From NCBI GenBank assembly GCA_945871545.1, contig CAMBWJ010000068.1, positions 1 to 7,991 on the forward strand: a stretch of 7,991 nucleotides of DNA, written 5' to 3'. The translations under genes and the position numbers were made by a program. The notes beneath the pieces were generated by a model that was not told the origin of the DNA, did no database searches, and was given only the letters and a program-made list of their open reading frames with translations. This DNA is from an uncultured Clostridia bacterium (GTDB lineage: Bacteria > Bacillota_A > Clostridia > Christensenellales > Aristaeellaceae). Below, piece after piece: positions 3,276 to 5,715 of the stretch. Every line of letters begins with the position of its first letter. Within the stretch, counting starts at the first letter, position 1.

Positions 3276-4049
3276 ATGAAAAAGTGTGGACGAATCGTCA
3301 ACCGCCTGATTTTGCTTCTCGGAATCGCCATGATTGCCTACTACCTCGCGCTGGGCGTCTTTGTGCGCTTCGGACAGTCTCTGCAATTTCTGTGGCTGCT
3401 CGGAGGCTTTCTGTGCATCGCGCGCTACCTCTACTGGCGGCAGGTGGAGAAGAGCGGAAGGTATCCGCGCCATAGAAAACTGCTGCGCGCGCTGCGGATT
3501 CTGTTCTGTCTGGCGCTGGCGTTTTTTCTCACCGTGGAGGGCGTGATCCTCTGCGGCGGCATGATGGAACCCGAGCAGGGCCTGGATTACATCGTGGTGC
3601 TGGGCGCGCGGGTGAACGGAACCGTGCCCAGCGGCAGCCTGCGCAACCGCATTCGGGTGGGCGTGGAGTACCTGCGGGACAATCCGGGAGCCATTGCCGT
3701 GCTCTCGGGCGGTCAGGGCAGCGGCGAGGAGATCAGCGAGGCGCGCTGCATGTACGAAAACATGCTTGCCGCCGGGATCGACCCCGCGCGGCTGATTCTG
3801 GAGGAGCAGTCCACCGACACCGCCGCGAACCTGCGCAACAGCCGCGCTCTGATCCCCAGGGGCGCAAGCGTGGGCCTCGTGACCAACAACTTCCACATCT
3901 TTCGCGCACTGGCGCTGGCCCGCAATCAGGGCTGGGAGGACGTGCACGGCGTCCCCGTGGCCACCACGATGCTCTCCCTGCCGCACTACCTGATGCGGGA
4001 GTTCGTGGGCGTGGTCTACGAGACCGTGCGGGGGAACCTGACATTCTGA
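3276..4049 (+). CDS. YdcF/SanA-like (DUF218) membrane-anchored protein
   Basis: This 257-residue protein joins an N-terminal membrane region to a DUF218 domain. Hydrophobic segments are visible at about 8-30, 36-54 and 70-95, the last leading directly into the soluble domain. DUF218 hallmarks are present: DYIVVLGARVNG (104-115), NRIRVGVEYL (124-133), AIAVLSGGQGSGEEISEA (139-156), the EEQSTDTAANLRNS block (176-189) and VGLVTNNFHIFRA (199-211). The family (YdcF, SanA, ElyC) is linked in other bacteria to envelope integrity and, for ElyC, to lipid-carrier metabolism; no precise activity is assured here. With three membrane segments the domain is predicted outside the cytoplasmic membrane, but topology is inferred. 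The ATG at 3276 has AAAGGA at 3260-3265, a 10-nt spacing. The gene ends in TGA at 4047-4049, convergent with the reductase gene across a hairpin-rich gap. Confidence 0.9.
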   Translation: MKKCGRIVNRLILLLGIAMIAYYLALGVFVRFGQSLQFLWLLGGFLCIARYLYWRQVEKSGRYPRHRKLLRALRILFCLALAFFLTVEGVILCGGMMEPEQGLDYIVVLGARVNGTVPSGSLRNRIRVGVEYLRDNPGAIAVLSGGQGSGEEISEARCMYENMLAAGIDPARLILEEQSTDTAANLRNSRALIPRGASVGLVTNNFHIFRALALARNQGWEDVHGVPVATTMLSLPHYLMREFVGVVYETVRGNLTF

Positions 4050-4050
4050 A

Positions 4051-4067
4051 TGTGGCGTGGCGCCACA
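4051..4067. repeat. Perfect short hairpin at the YdcF gene stop
   Basis: TGTGGCG (4051-4057) pairs with CGCCACA (4061-4067) around TGG; the centre also reads as the perfect palindrome GTGGCGCCAC (4057-4066). It begins one base after the stop codon of the YdcF gene. No T-tract follows, so it is not a standard terminator. The sequence after it (4069-4098) resembles the tails of the two large repeat units further right, so it may be the remnant of a third unit. Confidence 0.5.
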
Positions 4068-4097
4068 GCCACATGCCTGTCGGCGGCGGCTTGCCGT

Positions 4098-4124
4098 CGG
4101 CGGGATGAGGGCATCCCGCCCTAC
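4098..4124 (-). repeat. REP-like palindrome, copy 2 (inverted relative to copy 1)
   Basis: Read on the minus strand it is GTAG, then a perfect 9-bp stem GGCGGGATG with CATCCCGCC around the loop CCCT, then G. In plus coordinates the arms are 4099-4107 and 4112-4120. It matches the palindrome at 787-813 except for one stem pair (A-T here, G-C there, changed on both arms) and one loop base. Confidence 0.65.
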
Positions 4125-4169
4125 GGGGTGCGAAGCGAATCCGAGCAGTGTTGCCAAAACCGGACGTAA

Positions 4170-4202
4170 GAAATTCGACCCATTCCTGCCGGGTCGAATT
4201 TC
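4170..4202. other. Unit A hairpin 1
   Basis: A perfect 12-bp stem pairs GAAATTCGACCC (4170-4181) with GGGTCGAATTTC (4191-4202) around the 9-nt loop ATTCCTGCC. The outer four pairs (GAAA with TTTC) are shared with unit B. Four of the eight inner pairs differ from unit B, each with a matching change on the other arm. Confidence 0.85.
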
Positions 4203-4239
4203 GTGTAATCGGCTGCAATTTCAATCGGAAAGCAGCACA

Positions 4240-4276
4240 GAGTCCCTATCCCTCTGATCTATGGGGATAGGGACTC
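4240..4276. other. Unit A hairpin 2
   Basis: A perfect 13-bp stem pairs GAGTCCCTATCCC (4240-4252) with GGGATAGGGACTC (4264-4276) around the 11-nt loop TCTGATCTATG. Six stem pairs differ from unit B and all six are compensated. The loop half ATCTATG is identical in both units. Confidence 0.85.
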
Positions 4277-4360
4277 GTTCGCCGAAACCGCGAAGCGATG
4301 TGGCTGCAGGCCCTGCCTGCCAGCGGCGGCTCGCCACAGTATTTTCAAAACTGGACGTAA

Positions 4361-4393
4361 GAAACCCGCCTCATAGCCGCCGAGGCGGGTTTC
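4361..4393 (-). terminator. Unit B hairpin 1, candidate terminator of the MATE-reductase transcript
   Basis: GAAACCCGCCTC (4361-4372) pairs perfectly with GAGGCGGGTTTC (4382-4393) around the 9-nt loop ATAGCCGCC. Read on the minus strand, the GC-rich stem ends in GGGTTTCTTACG, a short interrupted U-tract. It lies about 120 bases past the reductase stop. Its A-rich and T-rich outer arms could also work in the plus direction for the YdcF gene, so it may act both ways. Confidence 0.5.
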
Positions 4394-4430
4394 GTGCCAG
4401 CAGATACAGAATCATGCGGAAGGAAACACA

Positions 4431-4467
4431 GCACCTCTGCCCCTTGAATCTATGGGGGCAGAGGTGC
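4431..4467. other. Unit B hairpin 2
   Basis: A perfect 13-bp stem pairs GCACCTCTGCCCC (4431-4443) with GGGGCAGAGGTGC (4455-4467) around the 11-nt loop TTGAATCTATG. Length, loop size and loop 3' half match hairpin 2 of unit A although nearly half the stem pairs are different. Confidence 0.85.
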
Positions 4468-4497
4468 GTTCGCTCAAACGCCGATAGGCATGTGCCT

Positions 4498-4512
4498 GCG
4501 GCGGCTCGCCGC
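4498..4512. repeat. Small perfect hairpin abutting the reductase stop
   Basis: GCGGCG (4498-4503) pairs with CGCCGC (4507-4512) around GCT. Related, less perfect forms occur near 4322-4336 and 4083-4098, so this is part of the repeated tail rather than an isolated feature. Confidence 0.5.
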
Positions 4513-5715
4513 TTACCACGGCTTCCAGACCTGCATGGCCCAACGGCCGACCCTGTAAAAGGGCGTCTCCAGCTCCTTCGCCGCCACCTTCAGCATCTCG
4601 CGGATGGGAATCTGCTGGGGACAGTGGCGCTCGCACTTGCCGCAGTCGATGCAGCGGGAGGCGCTGCCGGGCACCTTGCGCACGGCGGTCACCTGCCAGT
4701 ACTCCTTGGTGGCCTTCTTCCTGCCGTCGATGGCGATCTCGTTCAGACAGCGGAAGCTGCCGGGGATGTCCACGCCCTGGGGGCAGGGCATGCAGTATCC
4801 GCAGCCGGTGCAGCCCACGCGCACGCTGGCGTTGATCTCCCTTCTGAGTCCATCGATGAAGGCAAAGTCCTCCGCCGTGAAGCTCCCCGCGCGGGAATCA
4901 CAGGCGGCGCGCAGGTTCTCCTGCACCATCTCCATGCTGTTCATGCCGGAGAGCACGCAGGTCACGCCGCTCTGATCCCACAGCCAGTTCAGGCCCCACT
5001 GCGCCGCCGACCATCCATGGGGATGCTCCGCGATGCGCGCCTGCGCGGCCCTGGGCAGCAGGTTCACCAGCCGTCCGCCACGCAGCGGCTCCATGATGAT
5101 GACCGGAATGCCCTTCGCCTGCGCAGCCTCCAGACCGCGCCGTCCCGCCTGACTGTGCTCGTCCATGTAGTTGTACTGGATCTGGCAGAAGTCCCAGTCG
5201 TAGGCGTTCAGGATCTGCAAAAACATGTCGGTATTGCCGTGGAAGGAGAAGCCGATGTGCCGGATCTCGCCCGCCTGCTTCTTCTCGGCGATCCACTCCC
5301 GGATGCCCAGGCCCTCCAGCTTGTGCCAGGAGGCCACGTCGGTGATCATGTGCATCAGGTAGTAGTCGATGTGGTCGGTGCGCAGGCGGCTCAGCTCCTC
5401 GCGGAAGGTGCGCTCCACGCCCGCGCGGGACTTGATCAGATACTGGGGCAGCTTCGTGGCGATGTACACCCGGTCGCGGGCATTGTTCTTCTCCAGAATC
5501 CTGCCCACGGCGGCCTCGCTGCCGGGGTAGATGTAGGCGGTGTCCAGGTAGTTCACGCCGCCGTCGATGGCAGCCATCAGCTCGCGCCCGGCCTTGTCCA
5601 GATCGACGGCGCCGCCCTTCTTGGTAAAGCGCATGCAGCCGTAGCCCAGCACGGACAGCTGATCCCCGCCCGCACCGGGGCGGTACTGCATGCCGGAATT
5701 TTTGTTGATTTCCAT
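4513..5715 (-). CDS. Aldo/keto reductase with C-terminal ferredoxin-type iron-sulfur motifs (COG1453-like)
   Basis: This 400-residue cytoplasmic protein has an aldo/keto reductase barrel followed by an iron-sulfur domain. Barrel landmarks include LGYGCMRF (23-30) and the catalytic tetrad D58 and Y63 (in LDTAYIYPGSE), K88 (ATKLP) and H122 (YYLMHM). IGFSFHG (154-160) and the QIQYNYMD strand (178-185) follow. The C-terminal part carries C302-x2-C305-x2-C308-x2-C311-P and C355-x2-C358-x2-C361-x3-C365-P, consistent with two [4Fe-4S] clusters. Related proteins are common in anaerobes; electrons probably pass between a nicotinamide cofactor or substrate and the clusters, but the physiological substrate is unknown. 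The ATG has AAGGAGG 7 nt upstream, and that site overlaps the MATE stop codon 12 bases away, so the two genes are almost certainly cotranscribed. A very large open frame on the opposite strand here is a GC-driven shadow. Confidence 0.93.
   Translation of the reverse strand: MEINKNSGMQYRPGAGGDQLSVLGYGCMRFTKKGGAVDLDKAGRELMAAIDGGVNYLDTAYIYPGSEAAVGRILEKNNARDRVYIATKLPQYLIKSRAGVERTFREELSRLRTDHIDYYLMHMITDVASWHKLEGLGIREWIAEKKQAGEIRHIGFSFHGNTDMFLQILNAYDWDFCQIQYNYMDEHSQAGRRGLEAAQAKGIPVIIMEPLRGGRLVNLLPRAAQARIAEHPHGWSAAQWGLNWLWDQSGVTCVLSGMNSMEMVQENLRAACDSRAGSFTAEDFAFIDGLRREINASVRVGCTGCGYCMPCPQGVDIPGSFRCLNEIAIDGRKKATKEYWQVTAVRKVPGSASRCIDCGKCERHCPQQIPIREMLKVAAKELETPFYRVGRWAMQVWKPW

Follow-up and report, generated by a model that had tools for sequence, protein, structure and literature searches.

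REP and REPIN elements, which are associated with RAYT transposases, are short dispersed extragenic palindromes that are sometimes paired, and the REP/RAYT palindrome has a GTAG-type foot at its base. Two hairpins with six-base loops make up the ANTAR dual-hairpin substrate. The compared text of a survey of stem-loop repeats reports 92 families in 40 genomes, which apparently do not cover the bacterial group of interest here, and the uptake-signal families Hin-1, Nem-4 and Pam-1 are thought to be terminators (PMC2267715). For the terminators of Bacillus cereus, the portion of the literature used here documents compensatory Watson-Crick switches, with invariant columns at 90.7% in stems versus 62.4% in loops, and GU representing 5% of the pairs (PMC5381666).

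The window, a stretch of 7,991 nucleotides from an uncultured Clostridia bacterium, harbours two tandem units, A (4150..4284) and B (4341..4475, offset by 191), between two genes whose 3' ends face each other. These are a DUF218 (YdcF-like) gene (3276..4049, + strand) and a gene for an aldo/keto reductase with a 4Fe-4S domain (4513..5715, - strand), both with their stop codons toward the units. Unit A is composed of a lead (AAAAC..GGACGTAA), hairpin 1, a 37-nt linker, hairpin 2 and CGTTCGC, and unit B is its tandem copy. Hairpin 1, of 12 bp, spans 4170..4202 in A (arms 4170-4181/4191-4202, loop ATTCCTGCC) and 4361..4393 in B (arms 4361-4372/4382-4393, loop ATAGCCGCC). The linkers occupy 4203..4239 and 4394..4430. 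Hairpin 2, of 13 bp, spans 4240..4276 in A (arms 4240-4252/4264-4276, loop TCTGATCTATG) and 4431..4467 in B (arms 4431-4443/4455-4467, loop TTGAATCTATG). All four stems are perfect, with 9-nt loops in hairpin 1 and 11-nt loops in hairpin 2. The position is not that of a cis-regulatory leader such as a riboswitch or an attenuator: both neighbouring genes end at the units and none starts there. A and B probably represent an interspersed palindromic repeat of gene 3' ends, present in two tandem copies between these convergent genes, and its hairpin 1 would act as an intrinsic terminator, probably in both directions.

The preliminary description had reported tandem units that covary at ten base pairs, which we confirmed: exactly the ten listed pairs differ, and all are compensated. 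In the ungapped A/B alignment of 135 columns, 46 differ, i.e. 20 of the 50 stem columns and 26 of the 85 unpaired ones. The stem differences correspond to ten pairs changed on both sides and Watson-Crick in A and in B, including six in hairpin 2, every one of them compensated. When stem sites were simulated to change independently at the unpaired rate, all pairs remained intact in none of 200,000 simulations. As for the free stems between conserved loops and flanks of that description, conserved patches are indeed present, but the proportion of differing unpaired columns shows that conservation outside the stems is incomplete. The folding z-scores of 145-nt stretches are -5.5 and -5.8 on the + strand and -5.4 and -6.3 on the - strand, and the window units form stable GC-rich stem-loops, as intrinsic terminators do. 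Clean stem covariation between tandem copies can stem from a terminator-like palindrome, and a new regulatory RNA is not required.

That the units do not belong to a known family holds for Rfam, as no match at the gathering score was found in the whole window, and lax thresholds yielded five sub-threshold matches, the best with an E value of 0.12 at 4041-4096. BLAST analyses of A and B returned four short 34-base matches in plasmids (E 0.3) and none in phages, and those of the related piece from genome G458 (see below) returned none in either. Three patterns (3, 5 and 42 contigs) revealed no relative in viral contigs, only one terminator-like hairpin (L107). A strict flank pattern had ten matches in genome contigs, none with a 9-pair stem in the right place. 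A terminator scan of 3900-4700, which takes loops of 3-8 only, found none, the loops here being of 9 and 11 nt. The element was not found in a limited literature search, which does not prove it undescribed. The ANTAR dual-hairpin substrate was ruled out on the basis of the loop lengths, and integron attC sites, judged by their box sequences, were dropped. No promoter match was found in the window region. The A/B similarity is limited to about 4140 to about 4289, and hence there is no conserved promoter outside the unit; a tandem array of small RNAs, each with a promoter of its own, was rejected on these two grounds. Unlike REP/REPIN elements, the hairpins have no GTAG-type foot beside them, their loop rather than their stem is kept, and no partner protein was seen. 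Like the stem-loop families of the survey cited above, they are dispersed, intergenic and hairpin-forming, but this loop and this two-hairpin unit were not found in the compared text, its tables being outside the comparison (PMC2267715).

The covariance search of related genomes proposed in the preliminary description identified a gap-free relative in G458 and then a multicopy hairpin 1 in another genome, G845. The model R1, built from A and B, was applied to 250 genomes of the family of G209, since a comparison with 381 genomes from the class of G002 placed the FtsH fragment of the window closest (86%) to G209. Four of them had a match, of which one is real (G458, at an extreme contig end); by eye, the other three are chance matches or plain terminators. 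R1 had no matches in a set of 21 genomes. Up to the contig end, which falls at the 5' arm of hairpin 2, the G458 sequence aligns without gaps with A and B, with a 12-bp stem 1 of new sequence, a 9-nt loop and a linker of the same 37 nt. Across the three sequences, all 62 scored pairs are standard, 11 pairs are changed on both sides, and none of 500 shuffles reached any of five measures; this set is strong for pairing and weak for phylogeny. A shape under selection with free stem sequence, as had been suggested, is thus supported by a relative that keeps the geometry with a new stem 1, and by the perfect pairing of hairpin 1 described below. In G458, an inverted hairpin lies just upstream (L032 1457-1491); its loop nearly matches the hairpin-2 loop in reverse complement, and one of its pairs is G-U on the + strand. 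Hairpin 2 is thus known from A, B, this inverted hairpin and one half in G458.

With G458 added to the model (R2), eight of 22 genomes of its genus matched at E values up to 1, and only G458 was accepted. A pattern allowing up to two mismatches matched seven of 398 genomes, and by eye the stem forms only in G458; with up to three mismatches, 50 of 391 genomes matched, and the full stem was again seen by eye only in G458, the G281 match resembling a terminator. The genome samples overlap, and the two flank patterns are blind to G845-type copies, in which eight flank bases are missing. The linkers of A, B and G458 (4203-4239, 4394-4430 and L032 1554-1590) have in common, on the - strand, a pyrimidine-rich stretch with TTCC, possibly a single-stranded pairing site. 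The sister genomes G458 and G657 have a flank in common (L032 1380-1411 and 1609; L038 1-32), and both contigs break at or inside an array hairpin, as if the region were repeated or resistant to assembly.

Among 89 genomes of the order, seven had an R2 match, and 15 of the 21 matched places are in G845. The six single matches in the other genomes were read by eye and left uncounted, and by eye the weak model matches outside G458 and G845 resemble plain terminators. Our G845 sample comprises 71 stretches, i.e. 1,228,417 bases of the 2.0-Mb genome, with the matched contigs included. The copies in this genome are made of hairpin 1 only: AAAAC, A and GAAA precede eight pairs that mostly vary, a loop (e.g. 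ACGCTTACC or ATTCTTACC), the matching arm and TTTCGTAT. The eight bases CGGACGTA, found before AGAAA in A and B, are missing from most of them. Neither the linker of the window nor hairpin 2 is present 3' of the G845 copies, and no ATCTATG loop with a stem was found in the scanned stretches of this genome. Most copies are followed, at about 60 nt, by a different hairpin with the sequence CCTACTTTTCTTCAGAAAAGTAGG or a variant of it. Such CCTACTTTTCTTCAGAAAAGTAGG hairpins and variants (CTTCC..GGAAG, CCTGC..GCAGG) are found 3' of genes in L168, L171, L183 and L213, some of them in runs; many of their arm changes are matched, and a few are mismatched.

A scan of G845 that left the stem unselected and fixed most of the loop yielded 765 places, of which 25 have at least ten of 12 pairs and 21 have 12 of 12, all of them Watson-Crick. 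By comparison, five of 3805 displaced-arm controls reach ten of 12 pairs. The 21 hairpins, which were chosen with at least ten contiguous pairs and set loop ends, have variable stems and a common 9-nt loop, A-N-N-C-N-T-R-C-C, whose positions 1, 8 and 9 are conserved by choice. A wider scan, which fixed no more than the closing pair and the final CC, added a 22nd complete copy (L176, loop GTTCTTACC) with one odd pair that reads A-C on the listed strand and G-U on the complementary one; this copy is outside the counts of ORF positions, of T tails and of the 14 sequences below. One decayed copy has nine pairs (L207). The hairpin is therefore an interspersed repeat, with 22 complete copies in 1.23 Mb of G845, although nearly all the evidence from copies of hairpin 1 comes from this one genome. 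In the 14 distinct hairpin-1 sequences from A, B, G458 and G845, 168 of 168 pairs are Watson-Crick, with three pair types at each of stem positions 5, 6, 9 and 11. Within the loop, C occupies position 4 in 13 of the 14, T occupies position 6 in 13 of the 14, and all have a purine at position 7. The structural reading was to fail if homologues had uncompensated stem changes or if no family existed elsewhere. Hairpin 1 withstands this, with one one-sided change and one decayed copy, while hairpin 2 has too few copies. The selected form of hairpin 1 may be an RNA or a two-strand or DNA palindrome.

The dispersal of the family bears on a mobile DNA element, in which a nuclease or transposase encoded elsewhere would recognize hairpins 1 and 2 in single-stranded or cruciform form and move the unit, the stem sequence being free and the loops and spacing being the signals. 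The G845 copies are dispersed and alike beyond the hairpin, with three tandem pairs 82-83 nt apart; the distribution is patchy, with one positive genome among the 22 of the genus (G458); and the G+C content of the units departs from the background, 52-55% versus 63% for the window and 46% versus 34% for the contig stretch of G458. A constant geometry in three sequences and the near absence of G-U pairs also agree with it. Nevertheless, there is no transposase or nuclease gene within the window, the copies hold a fixed place and orientation behind genes, no target duplication was established, and gene conversion could equally spread repeats. We consider such an element unlikely. The G+C contrast and the dispersed tandem copies also fit the spread of a 3'-end palindromic repeat through some unseen agent, and a dispersed family at 3' ends raises the question of whether terminators spread as repeats.

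Analyses of the surroundings of the G845 hairpins revealed that they are located behind genes. In the orientation that mostly gives a TTTCTGTTTTGG-like tail, an ORF of at least 80 residues ends at most 180 nt 5' of the hairpin in 19 of 21 cases, and between 76 and 140 nt in 16 of them, versus three of 21 with an ORF end within 180 nt in the other orientation. For eleven of the 21 copies, one side is hidden by a nearby contig end, and for the remaining ten the numbers are 8 versus 3. The preceding gene within 180 nt is supported by Pfam for 14 of the 21 hairpins, and an ORF with no Pfam match precedes three more, L242 being outside the Pfam test. These genes are unrelated, coding for P-type ATPases, ETF, a HerA helicase, an alanyl-tRNA synthetase and others. 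In the window, hairpin 1 of A is 120 nt from the ydcF stop on the + strand and hairpin 1 of B is 119 nt from the reductase stop on the - strand. The latter arrangement has the orientation that prevails in G845, whereas ydcF reaches hairpin 1 of A in the opposite one. Thus, the hairpins of both G845 and the window are 3' of genes, as intrinsic terminators are.

The G845 hairpins have between 4 and 10 T among the 12 bases of the tail on the tail strand. In the window, the tails of hairpin 1 contain 6 (A) and 4 (B) T of 12 on the + strand and 6 in both units on the - strand, and hairpin 2 has no T tail by eye. One G845 copy (L186 7377) is an exception, as its better tail and an ORF close by both belong to the other orientation. 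Scarcity of G-U pairs distinguishes the family: the 22 complete copies have one in 264 pairs, versus 170 in 1756 pairs for the terminator-like hairpins of G845 with a T tail only and 54 in 1931 for those with a T tail and an A-rich head, a class that can include family copies. Because a G-U pair on one strand is an A-C pair on the other, this scarcity fits a hairpin used on two strands. Both departures from Watson-Crick pairing, in the 22nd G845 copy and in the inverted hairpin of G458, are G-U on the T-tail strand and A-C on the other. These two cases, too few to decide, speak for an RNA made from that strand versus strict use of both.

A mutational effect with no selection might also keep stems perfect, if template switching within the quasipalindrome copied one arm to the other. 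Such repair has been described in E. coli and yeast, according to the parts of the reports considered here (PMC7202029, PMC3820800), and all pairs are Watson-Crick in A, B, G458 and 21 of the 22 complete G845 copies, in line with this reading. We nevertheless regard it as very improbable, since it leaves the kept loop, the linker length and the place at 3' ends unaccounted for and since other G845 hairpins carry 2.8-9.7% G-U pairs.

The departures on the T-tail strand also agree with an independent structured RNA, a promoterless module that would be cleaved off the reductase mRNA at its 3' end, in the order hairpin 2, linker and hairpin 1 as terminator, with the loops and linker read in trans. 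The fixed 37-nt linker with its kept bases and its common TTCC on the - strand, the hairpin-1 loop kept in three genomes and the folding z-scores below -5 on either strand are in line with this proposal. We find it improbable nonetheless, as the G845 copies have neither linker nor hairpin 2, folding is equally good on both strands, and neither a promoter nor an Rfam match was found.

The bidirectional-terminator repeat family, listed only as an alternative in the preliminary description, is what the evidence favours for hairpin 1. This hairpin is nearly strand-symmetric, with a GC-rich core, an AAA foot and a TTT foot, such that each strand would read as a stem followed by a T-rich tail. The ydcF transcript would reach hairpin 1 of A on the + strand and the reductase transcript would reach hairpin 1 of B on the - strand, and the hairpins might stop these transcripts or protect their ends. 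Use on two strands would disfavour G-U pairs, and stem changes would come as Watson-Crick doubles. The family resembles bidirectional intrinsic (Rho-independent) terminators by its GC-rich hairpin with A/T runs at the feet just 3' of genes and, as far as the compared part of the B. cereus study goes, by its compensated stem changes and few G-U pairs (PMC5381666). It differs from them by its 9-nt loop kept across three genomes with free stems, by the second hairpin, whose spacing is constant in the window and G458, by the existence of a dispersed sequence family, and by the weak T tails in the window. In ordinary terminators, as represented in that same part, the stem is kept and the loop varies, the reverse of this family (PMC5381666). 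The kept loop, the weak tails of the window and the T-less hairpin 2 count against the terminator reading, and termination does not account for the conserved loop, the constant 37-nt linker or hairpin 2.

A family that keeps its loop and varies its stem at 3' ends makes a case for asking whether a factor reads terminator loops. There is a slim chance that many unrelated mRNAs carry the 9-nt loop, GGYANGNNU on the - strand, as a 3'-end signal recognized by a protein or an RNA. If so, a single factor would set the termination, processing or stability of a set of transcripts, somewhat like the 3' stem-loop of animal histone mRNAs, and hairpin 2 with the 37-nt linker would be a second reading site for it.

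Other repeats surround the units. Three copies of TGCCNGCGGCGGCTYGCC (4078-4095, 4318-4335 and 4493-4510) alternate with the two units, which both lie inside an inverted repeat of 32 nt (84%; 4054-4085 with 4479-4510). By eye, the short sequence AAACCG is directly repeated at the borders of unit A. Palindromes like GTAGGGCGGGGTGCCATCACCCCGCCG are found in the window at 787-813 and 4096-4123, with co-changed inner pairs (ATG/CAT versus GTG/CAC). Palindromes of the GTAGGGCGGGGTGCCATCACCCCGCCG type also adjoin G845 copies in L168, L169 and L171, and similar GTAGGGC..GGCAGGAG palindromes flank G845 hairpins.
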